Source: Burkholderiales bacterium
GTDB taxonomy: Bacteria; Pseudomonadota; Gammaproteobacteria; Burkholderiales; Burkholderiaceae_C
Assembly: GCA_947453625.1 (NCBI GenBank)
Contig: CANGHK010000013.1
Coordinates: 1 to 64,000, forward strand
Direction: 5' to 3'
DNA length: 64,000 bases
In this document: one piece after another, positions 6,970-18,857 of the stretch
How positions within the stretch are numbered: position 1 is the stretch's first letter
Layout of the letters: the number at the start of each line of letters is the position of its first letter
Notes under the pieces: model-generated
The model's database searches: none
The model's input: the letters and a program-made list of their open reading frames with translations, nothing else
Told to the model about the DNA's origin: nothing
Made by a program: the position numbers and the translations under genes

Positions 6970-8826
6970 ATGAGGGTTTCGACCAAGCGCAGTCTCACAC
7001 GTGGCAAGAAGGCGCGCGGTGACGCGGCGGCAGTGCAAGGCCGTCTCGAAGAGGCGCATGGCCTGTTCGGTCAAGTCTGTCGAACCGACCCGGCAGATGC
7101 CGAGGCCTGGGTCAAGCTGGCGATGGTGGAACGGCGCCTGGGTCGATTGGCCGAGGCCGAGACCAGCGCACACCGCGCGCTGACTCTGGCGCCGGGTGTC
7201 GGCTTTGCCCACCATGTCTGGGCCGTTGCGGTGCATGCCCAGGGCCGTTTTCCGGAGGCCGTGGAAGCCTACCGACATGCGCTGAAGTGTCAGCCCGGGT
7301 TTGCCGATGCCCACTTCTTGTTGGCCTGTGCGCTGCGCAGCCTGGGCCAGACCCGCGAGGCCGCCGAACACCTGAAGCAGGCGCTGGCACGCCGTCCCGA
7401 CTACGCCGAGGCGTTGAGTGAACTGGGTGCGCTGAATGTGCTTGCCGGGGACCACGCGACCGGCCTCGTGCAACTCCAGCGCGCGGCGCAACTTCAACCC
7501 GGCAATGTCGAGACGCAGTGCAACCTCGCGCAGGCCCTGAGGTTGGCCGGCAGGATGCCGCAGGCCATCAGCACCTACCGGCAGACGCTGCAGTCGGCGC
7601 CGAACTCGGCGAGTGCGTGGGCGGGTCTGGCGCAACTGCTCGAACGTGTCGGACAGCTCGACGAGTCGCGGCAATGCCTGGAACGTGCGCGCGCGCTGGC
7701 GCCGTTGCTTCCTGACGCTGAGCTCGTGGCAGCGCGCCTGATGTGTCGCGAGAAGCGCTTCGAGCAGGTCGCTGCCCGCCTGCACCACTTGCTGGCGAGC
7801 CAGGGGCTGGCCGCTGAGATCAGCGCCGAAGCCGAACTGCTGCTGGGGCAGGTCCTGGACCAGCTCAACAGGCCCGAAGCCGCTCTCGACCAGTTCACGC
7901 GGGGCAAGGCCAGGCGTAGCATTGCCGCTGCGATGGACCCTCGCAACGATCCGGCGCATTACCTGCGCCGAGTCGAGCAATTGCGGGCCTTGTGCAGTGA
8001 CGGGCTGGCGAGCGCACAGCCCTTGGACTTCGGCGTTGCAGCCTCACCCGCCGATCCGGTCTTCCTGATCGGCTTTCCGCGTTCCGGCACCACCTTGCTC
8101 GAGCAAATGCTCGACGCGCACCCGCAACTGGTGGCCATGGACGAGCAACCTGCCGTGTCGCAGATGTTGCAGGCCTTCTGGGATCTGGCGGGCGATGACC
8201 CGGCGGGCGCTTTGGCCGGTCTCGGGCAACGGGACGCCAGCCACCTGCGCGACGTCTACCGCGCCGAGGCGGCGCGCCATATGCAGCTCGGTCAGCACCA
8301 GCGACTGGTCGACAAGCTGCCGCTCAACACGGCGGCCGTACCGGTGATCTGGCGCGTCTTCCCGCGAGCGCGATTCATCTTTGCGCTCCGACACCCCTGT
8401 GATGTCGTGCTCAGCTGCTTCATGCAGGACTTTGCACCCAATACCGCGATGGCCAGCTTCAATTCGCTTGCCGGGGCCGCTCGACTCTACCAGGCGGTGA
8501 TGTCGGCCTGGCTGCACTTCGTCCGCACGCTGCCGCTGGTGCACTTCGTCAACCGCTACGAAGACCTGATCGCCGATCCGCCCGGCGAACTGCGCAGACT
8601 CTGCACTTTTCTCGACCTGCCATGGGACGACGGCTTGATGGACCATGTAGCCCATGCGCGCCAGCGCGGTGCCATCAACACCCCCAGCTATCAGCAGGTG
8701 ACCCAGCCGATCTACCGCAGTGCAGCCGACCGCTGGCGGCGCTACCAGGACGGCCTGGCGCCAGTGCTGTCTACCTTGAGGCCCTTCATCGGCAGCTTCG
8801 GCTACACGGTGGATTCGGCGGCCTGA
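6970..8826 (+). CDS. TPR-repeat sulfotransferase family protein
   Basis: This 618-residue protein has two parts. Residues of about 15-330 are tandem TPR helices (for example AEAWVKLAMVERRLGRLAEAE, seen as repeated W/L-G-A-P spacing). Residues of about 360-610 form a sulfotransferase. The 5'-phosphosulfate loop is FLIGFPRSGTTLLEQM near residue 365, and the 3'-phosphate motif is FALRHPCDVVLSCFMQ near 471. The family transfers sulfate from PAPS to sugars or protein tyrosines, and the TPR part probably binds the acceptor. No signal peptide is seen. It ends 3 bases from the stop of the convergent PrsT-like gene and near a PEP-CTERM gene, which suggests modification of a secreted surface polymer or protein. 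The acceptor is not known. Confidence 0.83.
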   Translation: MRVSTKRSLTRGKKARGDAAAVQGRLEEAHGLFGQVCRTDPADAEAWVKLAMVERRLGRLAEAETSAHRALTLAPGVGFAHHVWAVAVHAQGRFPEAVEAYRHALKCQPGFADAHFLLACALRSLGQTREAAEHLKQALARRPDYAEALSELGALNVLAGDHATGLVQLQRAAQLQPGNVETQCNLAQALRLAGRMPQAISTYRQTLQSAPNSASAWAGLAQLLERVGQLDESRQCLERARALAPLLPDAELVAARLMCREKRFEQVAARLHHLLASQGLAAEISAEAELLLGQVLDQLNRPEAALDQFTRGKARRSIAAAMDPRNDPAHYLRRVEQLRALCSDGLASAQPLDFGVAASPADPVFLIGFPRSGTTLLEQMLDAHPQLVAMDEQPAVSQMLQAFWDLAGDDPAGALAGLGQRDASHLRDVYRAEAARHMQLGQHQRLVDKLPLNTAAVPVIWRVFPRARFIFALRHPCDVVLSCFMQDFAPNTAMASFNSLAGAARLYQAVMSAWLHFVRTLPLVHFVNRYEDLIADPPGELRRLCTFLDLPWDDGLMDHVAHARQRGAINTPSYQQVTQPIYRSAADRWRRYQDGLAPVLSTLRPFIGSFGYTVDSAA

Positions 8827-8829
8827 AGA

Positions 8830-11604
8830 TCAGCCCTTGAGCGCGGCCTTCAGGCTGTCCAATGCGGCCTTGTCCCGGCTGTCGAGCTTGTCCTGCGCTA
8901 TGTTCTGAACCAGACCGCCAGCGCCCTTGCGGTCGCCTTTTGCAGCCATGGCCTCGGCCAGGTGCAGCCGGGGGCTGGCGGCGGTTGGTGCGAGGTGGGT
9001 CGCGGTCAGCAGCGCGGCCATCGCCTCGTCGTTCTTGCCCGCCAGGCGCAATGCCACGCCGAGGGTGTCGAGGACCGTCGGATCGTCAGGCAGCAAGGCG
9101 GCAGCCTTGCGGGCGTTTTCCACTGCCTGGGGCTGCTTGGCCAGCACCTGTGCCCAGGCCAGGTCATTGAGCGCCATCGGGTTGCGGGGATCCTGTGTCA
9201 CGATGGTTGCCATCAATTCGACACTCCTGGCCGCGTTGCCGGCGTCGAGAGCACGCTGGGCGGCAAAGCCGAGCACCCGCGGATCCTTGGGGAACTGCCG
9301 CATCGCGGCCGCCATCGCCTCGTCGGCAGACGTGCCCCGGCCAAGGCGATCGAGCACCGTGATACTGCGCAGCAGCGCCACCGGGACCGCGCCTGCGGCG
9401 CCGGCCTTGCCATACTTGACCAGCGCCTCGCTGTACTGCTTGGCAATGGCCAGCACGTCGGCTTCGAGCACCATCCCGTCCAATTTGAGTTCATCGCGTC
9501 CGGCCATCTGGCGCGCCACCGAGAGGCCCTCGGCTGCGTTGGATTGCGCCGCCAGTTCAGCCAAGACGACGTAGGCGGTCGGGTCGTACGGGTGGCTGGT
9601 GATGACGGATCTCAGGATGGACGCAGCCTCGGTGTTGCGACCGGCAGCGACTTCGAACCGGGCCAGCTTCAGGCGCCAGTCGGCGACTTGCGGATAGCCC
9701 GAGGCCAGCTTGCGGTAGGCGTCGACCGCCAACTCGGTCTTGCCCAGGCGCTGGTATGTGGCCGCCAGCAATGCCCGGGCCTGCATCGACGCGCTGGCGG
9801 ACGCAGCGCCCGACTGCGCCGTGCTCAAGGCTTTGTCGCTGTCGCCGCCGCGCAGGTATTGTTCGACCAGCGCGGCGCGCAGACGCACTGCCTCGGGCGC
9901 CGCCATGCTGCCTTTTTCGAGCACGGCCAAGGGACTGTCCTTGGCCGCGGCGCCGGCATCGCGCAGCAGGGCGGCGTAGTCCAGGAAGGTGTCGGGATCG
10001 TTGGTCTTGGCAGCGACTGCGCTGGCGTAGCGCTGCAGCACCTCGGCACGCTGGGCCGGCTTGCGCGCCATCGCCCGCAATGCCGCCAGGGCGGGCTGGT
10101 AACCGGTATTCAGGTCCAGCGCCGCCAACGTGCTGCTCCAGGCGCTGCCGGTGTCTTTCTGCGCAGCTTGTGTGGCCGCCAGGGTCAACCTGGCCTGCGG
10201 ATCGTTGGGCTTGGCGGCCACGCCAACGTCGGCCAGGCGTCGCGCCCGCGGCACGTCGGCCATGCGCAACGCGGTCGCGACGATGCGGTCCATCAGCGCC
10301 GGGTCACCCCGGGCCATGGCCGATGCCTGGTCCAGCAATTGCGTGGCGCCGGCCTTGTCGCCCAGGCTGGCCTTCAGATTCGCCAGTCGCAGCACGCTGG
10401 CCGAATCGTCAGGCTGAAGCGCGACGATGCGCGTCAGCGTGGCCACCGCCTCCTTGCGCTTGCCCAGCAGCGCTTCGACGTCGGCCTTCTGCGACAGCAG
10501 CCTCAGATCGTCCGGTGCCTGCGACAGGCCCTTGTGCACGGTGTCTGCCGCCTCCAGGGGCTTGCCCAGCTTGAGCTGGGCCTGCGCCAGCAGCGAAAGC
10601 GCCGACAGCGATGTGGGATGCTTGACGCGTATCGTCGACAAGCGTTTGCGCGCGGTGATGACGTCACCGCGCTGCAGTTCGGCTGCAGCCGCCAGCAGCG
10701 TGGCCGGCAAATGGTCGGGTGACACCTCCAGCACCTTCAGTGCGGCGGCCAGGCTCTCATCGCTGCGGCCGGCCCGGGCCTGAAGGCTGGCATCGAGGTA
10801 CTGGGTCCAGAAGTAGCGCGGCGCAGCCTTCTTCAACTGGTCCCGCACCGCGCTGGCCTGGTCGAACTTGCCGGCGCTCATCAGCGCCTCGCCATATTCG
10901 CCCAGCAAGGCGTTGTTCCAGGGTGCAGCTTTCTGCGCGCGCTCGATCAACGCCAAGGCGGACTCCGGCTGGCCATTGATGGCTGCGACACGGCTGGTGG
11001 CGCGCAACACCCACCAGGGCGTCTTCGCGTCGGGCTGGTTGCCACCCAAGGCAGCCAGCGCCTCGACGCGCTTGCCTTCGGCCAACAGCAACTGGGCGCG
11101 CGCCAGGCTCACGGTCGACGTCGGCACGGTGCCCTGGAGTTGTTCCTGGGCCAATGGCGGTCGCCGTTGCCCGACCTGCGCCAGCGCGACGATCGCGCGC
11201 AGGTCGCTGTCGGCCTCGGGCGACTTCAGTCGCCTGTCCTTGAATTCACGGACCAGCTTCTCGTTGTCATTGCGCTCGAGCATCAGGAAGCCGATGCGCG
11301 GCAGCAAGACCTGTTCATCGCCGCCGTTGGCCAGCGCCTTTCGCAGTTCCTGCTCGACGCCGACAGAGTTGCCCACCCGCTCGAGTGCATCGGCCAACGC
11401 CAGCCTGGCCTCAACCGAATCGGGATGCTCCGCGACAGCGTTCTTGAACTCGATCACCGCCGCCGGATAGTCGCCGTCGGCCATCTTCCGGGCGCCTGAA
11501 GGCATGGCATCGTGGCTGTTGCAGCCACTCAGCGCGAGCAGGGCGATCAGGATGGCGGGCAGTGTTGCCTGCCCGGCAGCGGTCAGACCAGAGTGGCGGG
11601 ACAT
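8830..11604 (-). CDS. prsT: PEP-CTERM system TPR-repeat lipoprotein, PrsT-like
   Basis: A 924-residue lipoprotein. The start at 11604 is chosen for GGAG 7 bases upstream and a signal peptide with lipobox LSGC (ILIALLALSGCNSHD). The rest is TPR-type helical repeats throughout, beginning KMADGDYPAAVIEFKNAV and ending in a typical TPR run (LNDLAWAQVLAK). Length, lipobox and composition match PrsT, a protein of exosortase/PEP-CTERM loci thought to act in exopolysaccharide export and protein sorting at the envelope. A sigma-54-like promoter lies about 40 bases upstream. The exosortase and eps genes usually beside prsT are absent from this window. Confidence 0.85.
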   Translation of the reverse strand: MSRHSGLTAAGQATLPAILIALLALSGCNSHDAMPSGARKMADGDYPAAVIEFKNAVAEHPDSVEARLALADALERVGNSVGVEQELRKALANGGDEQVLLPRIGFLMLERNDNEKLVREFKDRRLKSPEADSDLRAIVALAQVGQRRPPLAQEQLQGTVPTSTVSLARAQLLLAEGKRVEALAALGGNQPDAKTPWWVLRATSRVAAINGQPESALALIERAQKAAPWNNALLGEYGEALMSAGKFDQASAVRDQLKKAAPRYFWTQYLDASLQARAGRSDESLAAALKVLEVSPDHLPATLLAAAAELQRGDVITARKRLSTIRVKHPTSLSALSLLAQAQLKLGKPLEAADTVHKGLSQAPDDLRLLSQKADVEALLGKRKEAVATLTRIVALQPDDSASVLRLANLKASLGDKAGATQLLDQASAMARGDPALMDRIVATALRMADVPRARRLADVGVAAKPNDPQARLTLAATQAAQKDTGSAWSSTLAALDLNTGYQPALAALRAMARKPAQRAEVLQRYASAVAAKTNDPDTFLDYAALLRDAGAAAKDSPLAVLEKGSMAAPEAVRLRAALVEQYLRGGDSDKALSTAQSGAASASASMQARALLAATYQRLGKTELAVDAYRKLASGYPQVADWRLKLARFEVAAGRNTEAASILRSVITSHPYDPTAYVVLAELAAQSNAAEGLSVARQMAGRDELKLDGMVLEADVLAIAKQYSEALVKYGKAGAAGAVPVALLRSITVLDRLGRGTSADEAMAAAMRQFPKDPRVLGFAAQRALDAGNAARSVELMATIVTQDPRNPMALNDLAWAQVLAKQPQAVENARKAAALLPDDPTVLDTLGVALRLAGKNDEAMAALLTATHLAPTAASPRLHLAEAMAAKGDRKGAGGLVQNIAQDKLDSRDKAALDSLKAALKG

Positions 11605-11643
11605 GGGAGGACTCCGAAGGCAGAGCGGTGGCGTGGCAAGTTG

Positions 11644-11658
11644 GCGACCAGCGTGCCA
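11644..11658 (-). promoter_or_regulatory. sigma-54 (-24/-12) promoter of the prsT-like gene
   Basis: On the minus strand the sequence is TGGCACG-CTGG-TCGC. This matches the RpoN consensus TGGCACG-N4-TTGC at all positions but one (TC in place of TT) with exact spacing of the GG and GC dinucleotides. It would start transcription near 11633, giving a leader of about 29 bases to ATG 11604. Confidence 0.6.
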
Positions 11659-11712
11659 GACAAGGGTGCTGGCTGCCCAGTTGCGGCCGCCAGCATGTGT
11701 GAAGTCATTCAC

Positions 11713-11747
11713 GGGCCAAGAAAAAGAGCGCTCCTTGGAGCGCTCTT
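11713..11747 (-). terminator. rho-independent terminator of the PEP-CTERM gene
   Basis: On the minus strand an 11-bp perfect stem (AAGAGCGCTCC, loop AA, GGAGCGCTCTT; 11747-11724) runs directly into further T residues, making a run of five. It lies 36 bases past the stop of the PEP-CTERM gene and before the prsT-like promoter, so the two minus-strand genes are separate transcripts. Confidence 0.85.
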
Positions 11748-11782
11748 GCCGCTATGTCCTGTCGAACAGTCGTTCGGCTGGC

Positions 11783-12616
11783 TCAGGCGGCCCGGCTCTT
11801 GGACCGGCGCCGCACGCCGACCATGCCGGTCAGGGCCAGGCCCACCAAGGCCAGCGAAGCCGGTTCGGGCACGGTGGTGTCACCGGGCCCGCCGGTCACG
11901 ACACCGAAGCCATCGAGGTAGACGTAACCCGCGTGGCCGCCATAGGGGCAGTCCGAGGCCAGCAGCGAGAGCGTGAAGTCGTCGCCCTGGGTCACCGCGA
12001 TGGTCTCGTCCTTCCAGGCGTTCCAGTACCAGCCGCCGGTATTGGTGAAGAGCCCGGCCCCGGCCGCAGTGGCCGAGCTGTAGTGGATGGTCGTGACGTC
12101 GGTGTTGGTCGTGTCGTCGCGCAGAGCGATCGTGAATTCGTCGGAGTCGGTCGGCCCATGCGATCCCTGCAGCACGGCGGCCCACGAGAAGTTGATGCTG
12201 GTGCCGCTGTAGGCCGTTACCGACTGCTGGATCAGCGAGACGCTGTAATTGTTGTTGGCGTCATTGACCTTCACCGAGTGGTTGCCATAACGCACCACGC
12301 TTTGGCCGGAGCGGCTGTCCACGCCAGCGCCACTGGTGACGGCCACCACCGAACTGCCGCTGGCGTGGGTGGCGGTGAAACCACCCGCCGAGGTGGTCGT
12401 CGCGGCGCCGGTGTAGTTGGCTGAAGTCAGCAACTGAGACGAGTTGCAAGTGCTGCCTTGTGAGCAACTTAAGGTGTTGTTCGTCCCGATGACGCCGCCA
12501 TCCTGGGTCCAGCCCGTCAGGTCGCCGGTCTCGAAACCACCGTTGTTGAAACTGCCGGCTTGGGCGCCAGCGGAAAACGCGGCCAAGATGGCCAAGGGCA
12601 AGAGATTCTTCTTCAT
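11783..12616 (-). CDS. PEP-CTERM sorting domain-containing protein
   Basis: A 277-residue secreted protein. ATG at 12616 has GGAG 5 bases upstream and gives a signal peptide (MKKNLLPLAIL, cleavage after AGAQA). The mature part starts GSFNNGGFETGDLTGW, a common opening of PEP-CTERM beta-sandwich proteins that resemble carbohydrate-binding modules. It is rich in Ser, Thr, Asn and Gly with few Cys (LSCSQGSTC, DCPYGG). The C-terminus is the sorting signal: VPEPASLALVG, a hydrophobic helix, then RRRSKSR. The exosortase is expected to cleave near PEP. The gene stands alone, with a sigma-54-like promoter and its own terminator. Its ligand and role at the cell surface or in matrix are not known. Confidence 0.9.
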   Translation of the reverse strand: MKKNLLPLAILAAFSAGAQAGSFNNGGFETGDLTGWTQDGGVIGTNNTLSCSQGSTCNSSQLLTSANYTGAATTTSAGGFTATHASGSSVVAVTSGAGVDSRSGQSVVRYGNHSVKVNDANNNYSVSLIQQSVTAYSGTSINFSWAAVLQGSHGPTDSDEFTIALRDDTTNTDVTTIHYSSATAAGAGLFTNTGGWYWNAWKDETIAVTQGDDFTLSLLASDCPYGGHAGYVYLDGFGVVTGGPGDTTVPEPASLALVGLALTGMVGVRRRSKSRAA

Positions 12617-12683
12617 GTGCGCTCCGGAGAATGGGTTGAACAAGTGCTTGGTGCGGCGGCGGGTGCCGCGCAAGTCCAGAAAA

Positions 12684-12698
12684 GCAAACTCCGTGCCG
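12684..12698 (-). promoter_or_regulatory. sigma-54 (-24/-12) promoter of the PEP-CTERM gene
   Basis: On the minus strand the sequence is CGGCACG-GAGT-TTGC followed by T. This matches the RpoN consensus TGGCACG-N4-TTGCW at every position except the first T. Transcription would start near 12672 and leave a leader of about 56 bases. PEP-CTERM genes of floc-forming Zoogloea are reported to depend on RpoN with the PrsK/PrsR two-component pair, so the element fits the family. Confidence 0.7.
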
Positions 12699-12738
12699 TC
12701 CATGGATATCCTCGGAGGAGATGCGTAAAAATCTTTAA

Positions 12739-12759
12739 AATCAACAGCTTATGTTGATT
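12739..12759 (-). promoter_or_regulatory. inverted repeat, candidate enhancer-protein site upstream of the PEP-CTERM promoter
   Basis: A perfect 7-bp inverted repeat (AATCAAC, 7-base spacer, GTTGATT) lies in an unusually A+T-rich patch (12725-12760). Its centre is about 77 bases upstream of the predicted start site, within the range used by sigma-54 activators. The binding protein (PrsR-like or other) is an inference. Confidence 0.4.
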
Positions 12760-13091
12760 GGTGTGACGCGGCTCCAGGCACGTGAAGAGCGTGTCTGATG
12801 GAATGTAAAGTAGATCGACATGCTGTGTGGACCGGGGGCTTGGCTTGGCCGGCGCCGGGTGCGACGACGATTCCAGACCGCTGTAGGCCGCACGAAGATG
12901 AATGGAGTGGGCTTGATGTCCTCGACGCTCTCTGTCCTCTTGCGGCGTGCGGGACTCGACCAGAAGGGCCCGTCGCCGTCAAGCACTGCGCGGGGCGCAG
13001 GGCCGGCGAGTCCCACCTCAGCATCTGCCGTCATCCATCCCTAGAATCTGCTGTCAATTCCTGCGCCGCCCGCCCAGCGCCCATCGTCCCC
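12760..13091. other. intergenic region upstream of uvrA
   Basis: These 332 bases sit between the divergent PEP-CTERM promoter region and the uvrA ATG at 13092. The uvrA frame stays open back to 12798, but the extra part shows no UvrA similarity. A possible -10 box, TAGAAT, is at 13042-13047, with no matching -35 box. No LexA box of the CTGT-N8-ACAG form was seen. Confidence 0.4.
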
Positions 13092-16000
13092 ATGACCGGT
13101 TCCATCCGTATTCGCGGCGCCCGCCAGCACAACCTCAAGAACCTGGACATCGACATCCGCACCGGCGAGATGACGGTGGTGACCGGGCCAAGCGGTTCGG
13201 GCAAGTCCAGCCTGGTGTTCGATACGCTCTACGCCGAGGGCCAGCGGCGCTATGTCGAGACCTTCTCGGCCTACGCCCGGCAATTTCTTGACCGCATGGA
13301 TCGGCCGGCGGTCGACCGGGTCGAGGGCGTGCCGCCGGCGATCGCCATCGACCAGACCAACCCGGTGCGCACCAGCCGGTCGACCGTCGGCACGATGACC
13401 GAACTGAACGACCACCTCAAGCTCTTGTTTGCCCGCGCGGCCCAGTTGTTCGACCGGCAGACGGCGCAACCGGTACGCCACGATACGCCGGAGACCATAC
13501 ACGCCGACCTGCTGCGGCGCGCCACTTTGCTGGGCGATCCGCGGGTCGTGATCACCTTCCCGGTCGAATTGCCCGCGACGGTGACGCCTGCCGAGGTCGA
13601 GCAATGGCTGTCGGCCAGCGGCTTCACCCGGGTCCAGGCCGAGCGGGTGGTCGATCACCGCAAGGTGCTCGACGTGGTGGCCGACCGGGTGCGCCTGGCC
13701 GGCGCCGACAAGGCGCGGGTCGTAGAGGCGCTGGAGGTCTCGCTCAAGCGCGGCAGCGGGCGGGTCAACGTCTACGCCTTGAATGAGGGCGTCGAGCCCG
13801 AACTGTGGCGTTATTCCACCGGCCTGCACTGCCCCGACAGCGACCTGCGCTACGCCGACCCGCAGCCGGCCTTGTTCTCGTTCAACTCGGCCTTCGGTGC
13901 CTGCGAGACCTGCCGCGGCTTCGGCCGGGTGATTGGCGTCGACATGGGACTGGTGATCCCCGACCCCCGCAAGACCCTGCGCAACGGCGTGATCAAGCCG
14001 CTGCAGACGCCTGCCTGGGCCGATTGCCAGAGCGACTTGCTGAAGTACGCCGGCGAGGCCGGCATCCCGCGCGACACCGCCTGGAGCCAGCTCTCGCAAG
14101 CCCAGCGCGACTGGGTGATCGAGGGCAACCCCGAATGGGCCGGCCACTGGAACAAGCAGTGGTACGGCGTGCGGCGTTTCTTCGGCTACCTGGAGAGCAA
14201 GGCCTACAAGATGCACATCCGCGTGCTCTTGTCCAAGTACCGCAGCTACACGCCATGCGGCGCCTGCGGCGGCGCCAGGCTGAAGCTCGATGCCCTGCTG
14301 TGGCGGCTGGGCAGCAAGGCCGACGCCGACGGGGTGCAAGCCCCCGACAAGCGCTTCCTGCCGGTGGGCGCGGCCTGGTCGCGCGACCAGTTGGAGGCCT
14401 TGCCGGGCTTGAGCCTGCACGACCTGATGATGCTGCCTATCCATCGCCTGCGCAGCTTCTTCGACGGCGAACCTGACCCCCAAGACGCCTTCGGCGTCGC
14501 CCCCCCGCGGGGGAACAGGCCGATTGGGGCGGCCCGGCGCGGCCTGGATCTGCCGTCGACGATGCTCGACGAGGCCCTGAAACTGCTGCTCGACGAGATG
14601 CGCACGCGGCTGCGCTACCTCTGCGATGTCGGCCTGGGCTATTTGACGCTGGACCGCCAGAGCCGCACGTTGTCGGGCGGCGAGGTGCAGCGCATCAACT
14701 TGACCACCGCGCTCGGCACCTCGCTGGTCAACACGCTGTTCGTGCTCGACGAGCCCAGCATAGGCCTGCACCCGCGCGACATGAACCGCATCGTCGAGGC
14801 CATGCACCGGCTGCGCGATGCCGGCAACACCCTGGTGGTGGTCGAGCATGACCCGGCGGTGATGCTGGCGGCGGACCGGCTGATCGACATGGGCCCGGGG
14901 CCGGGCGAGCGCGGCGGCCAGATCGTCTTCGACGGCACGCCCGACGCGGCGCGCAACGCCGACACCCTGACCGGGGCCTACCTCAGCGGCCGTAAACATG
15001 TTGGCATGGGCCTGCGCCGCTTCGTCAATGAGGCCACCCCGAAACTGATCCTGCAGGGCGCGCGCGAGCACAATCTGAAGAATATCGAGGTCGTCTTCCC
15101 GCTTCAGCGCTTGACGGTGGTGACGGGTGTCAGCGGTTCGGGCAAGAGCACGCTGATCCAGGACGTGCTGGTGCCGGCGTTGTTGCGCCATTTCGGCAAG
15201 CCCACCGAGGGCGCCGGCGAACACGACGCGCTGCTGGGCATGGACTGGCTGGCCGAGGCGGTGTTCGTCGACCAGAGCCCGATAGGCAAGACCGCGCGCA
15301 GCAACCCGGCCAGCTATGTCGGCGCCTTCGACGAGATCCGCAAGCTGTTCGCCTTCGCCCCGCTGGCGGTCGAGCGCAGCTACACCGCCGGCATGTTCAG
15401 CTTCAATGCCGGCAACGGGCGCTGCCCGACCTGTGGCGGATCGGGTTTCGAGCATGTCGAGATGCAGTTCCTGTCCGACGTCTACCTGCGTTGCCCGGAT
15501 TGCGACGGCAAACGTTTCCGCGCCGAGTTGCTGGAAGTCAAGCTGATCCGCAGCGCCTGGCAACTGTCGGTGGCCGAGGTGCTGGAGCTGACCGTGTCCG
15601 AGGCGATGGTCGTGTTCTCGGGCGACCCCTTGGTGACTGCCCGGCTGCAGCCCATCGTCGATGTCGGGCTGGACTATGTGCGGCTCGGCCAGCCGGTGCC
15701 CACGCTGTCGGGCGGCGAGGCGCAGCGCCTGAAGCTGGCCGGTTTCCTGGCCGACGCCGCGCAAGGGCCGAGGCAGCCCGCAGCCAGGCGCGGCACCTTG
15801 TTCCTGTTCGACGAGCCCACCACCGGCCTGCATTTCGACGACATCGCCAAGCTGATGCGCAGCTTGCGCAAGCTGCTCGAAGCCGGCCATTCGCTGATCG
15901 TGATCGAGCACAACCTCGACGTGATCCGCAGCGCCGACTGGATCATCGACCTCGGCCCCGAGGGCGGTGACGCCGGTGGCGAACTGGTGTGCAGCGGCAC

Positions 16001-18857
16001 GCCCGAAGACGTCAAGGCCCATCCCAGCTCTTTCACCGGCCAGGCGCTGCACGACTACGATGCGGCAATCGGCGTCGGCAGCCTGAGCGCCGAGGAGGGC
16101 AGGCCGCTGCAACTGATTGCCAAGGCGCGGCGTGATGCCCAAAGAGTGGCGGCCAGGCTGGCCGCAGGCACCGACATCCGCATCGTCAACGCCCGCGAGC
16201 ACAACCTCAAGAGCCTGAGCGTCGACATCCCGCGTGGCAAGTTCACCGTGGTCACAGGGGTGTCGGGGTCGGGCAAGAGCACGCTGGCCTTCGACATCCT
16301 GTTCAACGAGGGGCAGCGGCGCTACCTCGAAAGCCTGAACGCCTACGCCCGCAGCATCGTCCAGCCGGCGGGCCGGCCCGAGGTCGACGCGGTCTACGGC
16401 ATTCCGCCGACGGTGGCGATCGAGCAGCGGCTGAGCCGTGGCGGGCGCAAGAGCACGGTGGCCACCACCACCGAGGTCTGGCATTTCCTGCGCCTGCTGT
16501 GGGTCAAGCTGGGCACCCAGCGCTGCACCAAGGACGGCACCGAGGTGCGGCCGCAGAGCGTCGAGAGCATCGCCGCACAACTGCTGCGCGACCACCGGGG
16601 TCAACATGTGGGCCTGCTGGCGCCGCTGGTGGTCAACCGCAAGGGCGTCTACACCGACCTGGCCAAATGGGCCAAGGCGCGCGGCAACACCCACCTGCGG
16701 GTGGACGGCGAGTTCGTCAAGGTCGATCCCTGGCCGCGGCTGGACCGCTTCAAGGAGCACACCCTCGAATTGCCGGTGGGCGACCTGGTGATCACGCCGG
16801 CCCGCGAGGGCGAGTTGCGCGAACTGCTGGCCAAGGCGCTGGACCTGGGCAAGGGCGTGCTGCACCTGCTGACGCCGCTGGATGGCCTGGGCGCGGCGAT
16901 GGCCGCGGCCGAGCCTACCGCCGGCATCGGCAGCCTCAAGGTGTTCTCGACCAAGCGCGCCTGCCCGCAATGCGGCACCAGCTACCCCGAGCTGGACCCG
17001 CGCATGTTCAGCTACAACAGCAAGCATGGCTGGTGCACCAGTTGCGTCGGCACCGGCCTGACGCTGACCCGCGAGCAGCGCAAGGCCTATGACGACAGCG
17101 TGCGTGACGACGAACAAAAGGGCCGCGAGCAGAGCTTCCCGTCCGAGGAGGCCGAGGTCGAAGGCGTCAGCGGCGAGCCTTGCCCGGACTGCCTGGGCAC
17201 CCGGCTCAACCCGATCGCCCGCAACATCCGTTTCGACGAGCACACCATCACCGCGGTGGCGCAGTGGGCCGTCGGCGATGCGCGGGCCTGGGCCGGCGCG
17301 CTGGCGCTGGTGGGCCGCGACGCCGCGATCGCCCGCGACGTCGTCAGCGAGATCCGCAGCCGGCTCGAGTTCCTGGAGGAAGTCGGCCTGGGCTACCTGA
17401 CGCTGGACCGCGCCGCGCCCACGCTGAGCGGCGGCGAGGCCCAGCGCATCCGGCTGGCGGCCCAGCTCGGCAGCAACCTGCAAGGGGTGTGCTATGTGCT
17501 GGACGAGCCCACCATCGGCTTGCACCCGCGCGACAACGCCATCCTGCTGAAGGCGCTGTCCCGGCTCAGCGAGCAGGGCAACACGCTGGTGGTGGTCGAG
17601 CACGACGAGGACACGATACGCCGCGCCGACCACATCATCGACATCGGTCCCGGCGCCGGCAAGCGCGGCGGCCACCTGGTGGCGCAAGGCGTGGCGGCCG
17701 ACCTGTCGGCGAATCCGGATTCGGTCACCGGCCGCTTCCTGGCCCACCCGCTCAAGCACCCGCTGCTGCCGCGCCGGGTGGTCAACCGCGCCACGCTGCA
17801 CCTGGGCCTGCAGGGTGCGAACCTGCACAACCTGCGCAACGTGGACCTGCAACTGCCGCTGCAGCGCCTGGTGGCGGTGACGGGGGTGTCGGGCTCGGGC
17901 AAGAGCACGCTGGCGCGCGACGTGCTGCTGGCCAACGTGCACGCCATCGTCGCCACCAAGGTCAGCAAGGCCGGGCGCGACGCGCTGGCGGCCGGGGTCT
18001 TGCCGCCGCTGGTCGGCTGCACCGGCTTGAACGGCTTCGAGCCGATAGACCGGGTGCTGGAAGTCGACCAGACACCGATAGGCAAGACGCCGCGCAGCTG
18101 CCCGGCCACCTACATCGGTTTCTGGGACACGGTGCGCAAGCTCTTCACCGAGACGCTGGAGGCCAAGGCGCGCGGTTACGCGGCGGCGCGCTTTTCCTTC
18201 AACACCGGCGACGGCCGTTGCCCGGCCTGCGAAGGCCAGGGTTTGCGCACCATCGCGATGAGCTTTCTGCCGGACGTCAAAGTGGCCTGCGATGCCTGCC
18301 ATGGCCAGCGCTTCAACCCCGAGACGCTGGCAGTGACCTGGCGCGGCAAAAGCATAGGCGACGTGCTGCGCATGGAGGTGGACGAGGCGGTGGAGTTCTT
18401 TGCCAGCATGCCGGCGATCGCGCATCCGCTGCAACTGCTCAAGGATGTCGGCCTGGGTTACCTGACGCTGGGCCAGCCCAGCCCGACGCTGAGCGGCGGC
18501 GAGGCCCAGCGCATCAAGCTGGTCACCGAACTCAGCAAGGTGCGCGACGACGTGACGCGCCGGGGCCAGAAGCCGCCGCACACGCTGTACGTGCTGGACG
18601 AGCCCACGGTGGGCCTGCACATGGCCGATGTCGAACGCCTGATCCGCGTGCTGCACCGGCTGGTGGCCGGCGGCCACAGCGTGGTGGTGATCGAGCATGA
18701 CCTGGACGTGATCGCCGAGGCCGACTGGGTGGTCGACCTGGGGCCGGAAGGCGGCACCGCCGGCGGCCAGGTGGTCTGCGCCGGGACGCCCGAGCTGCTG
18801 GTGGCGCGCGGCACGCACACCGGGGTGGCGCTGGCGCCGGTGCTGGCGCGGACCTGA
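13092..18857 (+). CDS. uvrA: double-length excinuclease ABC subunit UvrA (four ABC ATPase modules)
   Basis: At 1921 residues this is twice the usual UvrA (about 940). It is built as two tandem UvrA units. Walker A motifs lie near residues 32, 678, 1055 and 1597 (GPSGSGKSS, then GVSGSGKST three times). LSGGE signatures lie near 527, 872, 1445 and 1800, each followed by a DEP Walker B. Each half ends with a complete zinc module (GRCPTC...CPDC; GRCPAC...CDAC). The front zinc motif is complete in the second half (CPQC...CTSC) but reads CPDS in the first. UvrA detects DNA damage and loads UvrB. Long UvrA proteins of this kind are known in Burkholderiales and pseudomonads, usually alongside a normal UvrA. 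An extra segment near residues 460-490 is encoded by a palindromic repeat. The start gives [15 protein letters not shown], the normal N-terminus. Confidence 0.93.
14474..14545 (+). repeat. GC-rich palindromic repeat inserted in frame in uvrA
   Basis: The segment contains GACGCC-TTC-GGCGTC (14484-14498) and CCCCC-GC-GGGGG (14502-14513), followed by GGGGCGGCCCGGCGC. The intergenic element at 53197-53230 shares the pattern CCCCCAA..CGCCTTCGGCG...CCCCCCCG. The azlC end (41574-41616) shares the GCGGCCCGGCGC part. Here it encodes a Pro/Arg/Gly linker ([18 protein letters not shown]) between FFDGE and [14 protein letters not shown], which are nearly adjacent in normal UvrA proteins. Confidence 0.7.

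Follow-up and report, generated by a model that had tools for sequence, protein, structure and literature searches.

Bacterial tyrosine sulfation rests, in the literature covered, on the example of RaxX. According to the available text of two reports, RaxST of Xanthomonas is a cytoplasmic sulfotransferase of the tyrosylprotein sulfotransferase (TPST) type that uses 3'-phosphoadenosine-5'-phosphosulfate (PAPS), is encoded beside the exported protein RaxX, needs a supply of PAPS and modifies RaxX before export (PMC6637879, PMC9372746). The processing of PEP-CTERM proteins beyond their sorting is poorly known. In Aquincola tertiaricarbonis, the available part of one report describes a PEP-CTERM gene (pepA) with an RpoN (sigma-54) promoter, a stem-loop and prsT downstream, as well as flocs that require prsT (PMC9850573). 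For PrsT, Haft and others suggested, in the text available, that its tetratricopeptide repeat (TPR) regions might act as guides for covalent modification (PMC1569441). Here we describe three neighboring genes for a TPR-sulfotransferase, a PrsT-like lipoprotein and a PEP-CTERM protein on contig C13 of the 5.18-Mb draft genome of a Burkholderiales bacterium, of which positions 1-64000 (the window) were analyzed. The closest relatives of the enzyme are linked to one family of PEP-CTERM proteins and often to one clade of PrsT. We tentatively propose, at slightly less than an even chance, that this cytoplasmic, TPR-guided, TPST-like enzyme acts on the PEP-CTERM protein linked to it, which would be sulfated prior to export as part of an accessory surface-protein cassette.

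Pfam and TIGRFAM scores bear out all three genes named in an initial annotation made from the sequence alone. The locus is composed as follows:

6970..8826, plus strand: TPR-sulfotransferase gene, 618 amino acids (Pfam, AlphaFold model, fold matches)
8830..11604, minus strand: PrsT-like TPR lipoprotein gene, 924 amino acids (TIGR02917, tree clade)
11644..11658, minus strand: possible sigma-54-like element upstream of prsT, 9/10 consensus positions (a single site, without shuffle control)
11724..11747, minus strand: intrinsic-terminator-like hairpin in the gap between the PEP-CTERM gene and prsT, 10 pairs with a T-rich tail
11783..12616, minus strand: PEP-CTERM protein gene, 277 amino acids (PF07589, TIGR02595, family alignments)
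12684..12698, minus strand: sigma-54-like -24/-12 element 5' of the PEP-CTERM gene, 9/10 consensus positions

The sulfotransferase gene had been described as ending 3 bases from prsT. The distance is correct, but the two genes end tail to tail, the 3 bases separating stop codons of opposite strands. A three-gene operon is ruled out, since the sulfotransferase and prsT genes converge and the hairpin separates the PEP-CTERM gene from prsT. This hairpin was assigned because of its perfect 10-pair stem and its position rather than by site count, as the scan found two such sites compared to a mean of 3.6 in shuffled sequences.

PF13469 (Sulfotransfer_3) matched residues 363-554 of the enzyme with an E-value of 2.4e-41 in Pfam, in addition to TPR repeats. 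The AlphaFold model is of high quality (predicted local distance difference test, pLDDT, 94.2; predicted template modeling score, pTM, 0.90) and contains a TPR superhelix at about residues 2-320, matching the fold of the TPR part of the O-GlcNAc transferase type, and a TPST-like PAPS sulfotransferase domain at about residues 356-617. Protein-tyrosine sulfotransferases were the best matches of the catalytic domain both by sequence and by fold, and the domain adopts the TPST fold in the model. R371, E392 and S482 align to the 5'-phosphosulfate-binding (5'-PSB) Arg, the catalytic Glu and the 3'-phosphate-binding (3'-PB) Ser of TPST, the Glu being presumably the catalytic base. R371, E392, K449, R474 and S482 are invariant, the first, second and last of them having been checked in 47 TPR-sulfotransferases. 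Roles of an Arg, a base (His or Glu) and a Ser in sulfotransferases are described in the available text of PMC9372746 and PMC6637879. As judged from the alignments, the enzyme is of the TPST type with its catalytic residues intact. It carries no signal peptide, which fits the initial annotation.

Relatives were sought with an enzyme alignment in one genome per species, covering 84,980 species. TPR-sulfotransferases are numerous: at least 572 stretches were confirmed, of which the best 80 loci were kept. Among these 80 the closest relatives were found in Dechloromonas (L083), Rhodoferax (L084) and Crenothrix (L085), with 43-47% identity over nearly the full length; the next by E-value reached 36%, and none of the other 77 exceeded 40%. 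A gene of the window's PEP-CTERM family lies within 1 kb of the enzyme gene in 3/3 of the closest loci compared to 0/77 of the others, in which neither a PEP-CTERM tail nor PrsT was found (PrsT-profile matches scoring 103-126 bits fall below the PrsT level used; both flanks reached about 10 kb in 42 and at least 3 kb in 63 of these loci). Fisher tests, all of which rest on small numbers here, gave p 1.2e-5 for these three scan-found members versus the 77 and p 0.001 versus the 73 control regions described below. A fifth member of the clade (L193, genome G601) came from the search with the PEP-CTERM protein. The four loci outside the window are arranged differently:

L083: enzyme, adenosine 5'-phosphosulfate (APS) kinase, PEP-CTERM and PrsT in the same orientation
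L084: PrsT, PEP-CTERM and enzyme in the same orientation; a second sulfotransferase and CysQ in the opposite orientation; APS kinase
L085: enzyme followed by PEP-CTERM
L193: PEP-CTERM gene convergent with the enzyme gene, which adjoins a fused ATP sulfurylase/APS kinase gene

Gaps between the enzyme and PEP-CTERM genes measure 878 (L083), 145 (L084), 571 (L085) and 360 bases (L193); in the window it is 2956 bases with prsT in between. Among the partners of the enzyme clade none is as constant as the PEP-CTERM protein, whose family gene lies within 3 kb in 5/5 loci; PrsT and a PAPS-supply gene were found in 3/5 each. A quick tree was built from 105 sulfotransferase domains, the number remaining after a motif filter had removed 19 rows above 150 bits, and in it the five linked enzymes formed one clade with SH-aLRT support of 99 and without an unlinked member; one extra row within it is a duplicate of the Rhodoferax gene. 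Enzyme, PEP-CTERM family and PrsT clade are linked in a clade-specific manner.

Two control sets were used: 73 regions surrounding further PF13469 sites in the family-level genome sample, with the linked window and Rhodoferax sites omitted and the second site of this genome scanned separately, and 40 regions of the same genomes that were placed by hand at contig fractions and are not random draws. Of the 73 regions, 52 reached the full length of at least 18 kb; the others were cut short, the shortest measuring 3 kb. PrsT was found in 0/73 compared to 0/40 regions and the window's PEP-CTERM family likewise in 0/73 and 0/40, ruling out a general link between TPR-sulfotransferases and PrsT. PEP-CTERM tails of any kind occurred in 6/73 (5 without the doubtful L276) versus 2/40; they were detected by a home-made pattern, whose hits in L276 and in L070, one of 34 PrsT loci, look spurious. 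The co-occurrence on which the initial annotation had staked its proposal is therefore not seen for TPR-sulfotransferases at large, and it does hold for the window's own enzyme clade, including private-clade PrsT in three of the five loci. APS kinase was found in 19/73 sulfotransferase regions versus 2/40 hand-placed ones and is therefore common beside sulfotransferases generally, not in this clade alone. The absence of sulfotransferases from the hand-placed regions (0/40) is a weak count, as the home-made profile recovers 50 of the 73 known sites.

Some further loci showed associations of their own. At three of them (L243, L244 and L248; genomes G319, G237 and G150) a sulfotransferase gene that does not belong to the window's clade is the direct neighbor of a PEP-CTERM gene unlike the window's family, one pair being divergent and two on the same strand; the pairing of sulfotransferase and PEP-CTERM genes may therefore have arisen repeatedly. 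An association of another sort, with exosortase, was found in genera g76 and g83, where two to three sulfotransferase genes lie about 2-13 kb from an exosortase gene (L232, L238, L240 and L241; genomes G287, G210, G290 and G095).

The window's lipoprotein scored 369.4 bits with TIGR02917, above the equivalog cut-off of 312.2, and shows a lipobox-like LSGC by eye. Five PrsTs of this genome exceed the cut-off (824, 693, 671, 627 and 369 bits), the window's being the lowest; the highest-scoring one is encoded about 11 kb from an exosortase gene on contig C20. In a tree of PrsT sequences, which also contains a false clade of five wrong-strand shadow open reading frames (ORFs), the PrsTs of the window, L083, L084 and L184 form one clade on a long branch with support of 100/100. 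Identity to the window's protein is 36-52% for the other three, compared to at most 29% for the next 16 rows listed; midpoint rooting does not fix whether this private clade lies inside or beside the high-scoring PrsTs. All four of its genes adjoin genes of the window's PEP-CTERM family. Two further PrsTs adjoining a gene of this family, in genome G051, fall elsewhere in the tree; at that locus (L192) the PEP-CTERM gene is followed by the two prsT genes in tandem, a PAPS synthase gene lies divergently upstream, and no sulfotransferase was seen in the 20-kb stretch.

Dedicated pairing of PEP-CTERM and PrsT genes seems to be frequent. A PEP-CTERM tail is encoded within 1.5 kb in 8/34 PrsT loci, counting the window's own and the doubtful L070, and on contigs C43 and C7 of the same genome (L188, L189) two further PrsT paralogues each lie beside PEP-CTERM genes. 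An accessory sulfotransferase gene might have met an ordinary pepA-terminator-prsT pair tail to tail by accident, as the convergent genes and the hairpin between the PEP-CTERM gene and prsT would allow, and a pepA-stem-loop-prsT layout is described in the available text on Aquincola (PMC9850573). The relatives disfavor such a chance encounter, as both Dechloromonas and Rhodoferax again unite this enzyme clade with the same PEP-CTERM family and PrsT clade, and we regard it as highly improbable.

The PEP-CTERM protein was recognized by its tail, which scored 25.4 bits with PF07589 (cut-off 20.7) and 24.1 bits with TIGR02595 (cut-off 16), and by eye it carries the signal peptide MKKNLLPLAILAAFSAGAQA. 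Its start is best placed at 12616 (MKKNLL...), since the sigma-54-like element falls inside the alternative longer ORF from 12703. This element was equaled by 1/100 shuffles. Seven other members of the family have elements matching 8 or 9 of 10 positions, equaled in 0-3/100 shuffles except for L083 (17/100). The possible element upstream of prsT (9/10) has weaker counterparts at the other three PrsTs of the private clade, with only 6 or 7 of 10. Family alignments of four locus proteins and two further relatives revealed the conserved block DCPYGGHAGYVYLDGFG. The body had been described as beta-sandwich-like. This is weakly supported, the structural model being poor (pLDDT 46.8) and the fold matches, with carbohydrate-binding modules as the best ones besides other beta-sandwich or jelly-roll domains, being low-scoring throughout; according to the model the body may be a beta-sandwich resembling carbohydrate-binding modules. 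It has no match in Pfam and nothing below E 0.06 among the Protein Data Bank (PDB) sequences. The sole NCBIfam match spanning the body was the flocculation protein PepA (NF033554), at 26.7 bits far below the cut-off of 80.

The PEP-CTERM family was searched in overlapping samples of 299 genomes of the bacterial family and 399 of the order, the top 9 or 6 candidates of each genome being scored. Twelve strong members (more than 200 bits) were found, the window included. In flanks of about 10 kb, or less where a contig ends, the enzyme is encoded in 3/12 (window; G325, which is the Rhodoferax locus L084; G601), PrsT in 4/12 (window, G325, G284, G051) and APS kinase or PAPS synthase in 4/12 (G325, G601, G573, G051). 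Enzyme, PrsT and APS kinase or PAPS synthase are all absent nearby in 6/12 (G024, G268, G461, G346, G390 and G359, the last near a contig end). APS kinase is enriched near the 11 members outside the window compared to the 40 hand-placed regions (Fisher p 0.015; 0.048 with one row per genus). Seven weak matches below 125 bits were excluded from the twelve, and six of these regions were examined, none having enzyme, PrsT or APS kinase nearby. In G573 (L197), a genus mate of G601, PEP-CTERM and PAPS synthase genes are adjacent with the enzyme missing between them; this looks like loss of the enzyme, likely by natural deletion, or a gap in an assembly that is 70% complete.

For the window we envisage the following course. 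The sulfotransferase would act in the cytoplasm, where its TPR superhelix might grip the unfolded PEP-CTERM precursor, by analogy with the TPR part of O-GlcNAc transferase. The TPST-like domain would transfer sulfate from PAPS to hydroxyl groups of the precursor, most likely those of tyrosines. The sulfated precursor would then leave via Sec and be received in the periplasm by an exosortase whose gene lies at another site of the genome, and the dedicated PrsT lipoprotein may help to place the protein in the extracellular matrix. We infer the PEP-CTERM protein as acceptor, tyrosine as the residue, selection by the TPR part and the role of PrsT, as well as sulfate transfer to any acceptor at this locus. 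A more far-reaching version is possible yet doubtful: a dedicated system of the PEP-CTERM/exosortase world with a TPR-guided TPST-like enzyme and, in several genomes, its own PAPS supply, devoted to cytoplasmic tyrosine sulfation of a carbohydrate-binding-like matrix protein.

Several observations weigh against sulfation of the PEP-CTERM protein. Nine of the twelve family members lack a nearby enzyme gene, and sulfation would therefore be accessory. G024, G268 and G284 encode the PEP-CTERM protein with no PF13469 match at 1e-10, and in the first two no APS kinase was found either; the protein can therefore presumably function unsulfated. No PrsT was found in the stretches examined of L085 and L193, several of the loci come from metagenome-assembled genomes, and the enzyme gene has a sigma-54-like element of only 7/10, short of the one preceding the PEP-CTERM gene. 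A comparison of linked and unlinked PEP-CTERM proteins singled out no acceptor residue: the Tyr of the DCPYGGH motif is present in 5/5 linked versus 3/8 unlinked members (Fisher p 0.04), and by eye the DCPYGGH tyrosines lie outside an acidic stretch of the kind preferred by metazoan TPST. To these points belong glycan genes near two of the enzymes. In L084 genes for glycosyltransferase 9 and GtrA lie about 8 kb from the enzyme gene, and in L193 an O-antigen-ligase-like gene, slightly below its cut-off (31.0 versus 31.7 bits), lies about 4 kb away.

These glycan genes, in L084 and perhaps L193, together with the weakly carbohydrate-binding-module-like body make sulfation of a matrix glycan or lipid-linked repeat unit the main rival, with the PEP-CTERM protein as a lectin holding the sulfated glycan. 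Such a role has precedents in the available text on cyanobacteria, where sulfotransferases found with PF13469 and two other Pfam families are mostly encoded within polysaccharide clusters and where the exopolysaccharide synechan is sulfated (PMC8205485). An exosortase-like ORF was moreover found in 5/73 sulfotransferase regions (one barely at the limit) versus 0/40. Against this, no glycosyltransferase gene was found between or directly beside the enzyme, PEP-CTERM and PrsT genes of the five loci (partly by eye), and the constant partner is one protein family rather than an exopolysaccharide (EPS) locus. The catalytic domain, too, is closer to protein-tyrosine sulfotransferases than to the carbohydrate sulfotransferases among the matches listed (heparan 3-O, E 0.0016). 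The annotation had named a polymer or a protein as acceptor; since the enzyme is of the protein-tyrosine-sulfotransferase type, the balance leans toward a protein, the polymer drawing on the glycan genes in the wider flanks at two of five loci. Altogether we consider glycan sulfation unlikely.

The enzyme might also sulfate another small molecule or protein, its gene having no more than regulation or mobility in common with the PEP-CTERM gene. Related domains serve metabolite pathways, as seen in sequence matches to CurM and polyketide synthase domains, and the 77 enzyme-relative loci without PEP-CTERM genes as well as the frequent lack of the enzyme beside the PEP-CTERM family would be in line with this. 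The linkage in all five clade members found, despite varied arrangement and different flanking genes, speaks against such a separate substrate, which appears rather improbable. Sulfation of the PEP-CTERM protein remains our preferred reading.

None of the three genes has a close copy in 20 genomes of the same genus, as searched with strict E limits and with scoring of the top 21 or 14 candidates of each genome for enzyme and PrsT, and the cassette therefore looks accessory. A plasmid search yielded one distant match to the enzyme (31.9%, Azospirillum) and none to the PEP-CTERM protein or PrsT. Membership in an exosortase/exopolysaccharide system, as suggested initially, is indirect. The genome encodes three exosortases (PF09721) on contigs C20, C1 and C73, and none was found in the 64-kb window with a profile built from these three. 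The locus thus differs from an XrtA exopolysaccharide locus, in which prsT and the PEP-CTERM gene lie near exosortase and EPS genes. The only APS kinase of this genome is encoded within a 760-amino-acid open frame on contig C28, as is a second sulfotransferase (L185), in whose region none of the partner genes was found. Next to the locus, the sulfotransferase gene is flanked on the side away from prsT by a gene which by eye is periplasmic-binding-protein-like. A 2019-amino-acid ORF at 12798-18857 (plus strand) looks by eye like a double-length UvrA-like protein, the usual UvrA being about half as long.

If sulfation of the PEP-CTERM protein holds true, an exported protein would bring fixed negative charge into the extracellular matrix, and the locus would represent the second bacterial tyrosine-sulfation system after RaxX in the literature covered and the first for a cell-anchored or matrix protein. 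The cassette of five loci, with a TPST-like enzyme, the PEP-CTERM family, often the PrsT clade and PAPS-supply genes, names a concrete acceptor candidate, and gene neighborhood may identify acceptors of TPR-sulfotransferases clade by clade. Searches of open-licence papers revealed no published link between PEP-CTERM or exosortase and a sulfotransferase.

Compared to RaxST, the window's enzyme carries a large TPR superhelix, and its partner, instead of RaxX, is a PEP-CTERM protein from a family whose members have about 250-280 residues and, by eye, a Sec-type signal. It is not part of a raxX-raxSTAB cluster, no exporter pair being found directly beside the enzyme gene, and sulfation in the window's system is a proposal. 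Metazoan TPST1 and TPST2 (3ap1, 5wri, 5wrj, 8w5z) share the fold across 250-256 residues, as well as the 5'-PSB Arg, the Glu at the catalytic-base position, the Lys and the 3'-PB Ser; the window's enzyme is 20-24% identical to them, lacks a membrane anchor and has a TPR domain added. The combination of a TPR superhelix with a transferase domain resembles O-GlcNAc transferase, whose catalytic domain is of a different kind; substrate selection by the TPR part of the window's enzyme is drawn from this analogy. With the Aquincola pepA-prsT locus the window shares the sequence of sigma-54-like element, PEP-CTERM gene, hairpin and prsT. Its PEP-CTERM protein differs in falling below the cut-off of the flocculation PepA model, its PrsT belongs to another clade than the high-scoring PrsTs compared (the Aquincola protein not among them), and the available text on Aquincola mentions no sulfotransferase (PMC9850573). 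The PEP-CTERM/prsT pair is therefore of a known kind and the enzyme is the unusual part. In summary, the cassette combines known parts, and sulfation of a PEP-CTERM protein would, if shown, be new.
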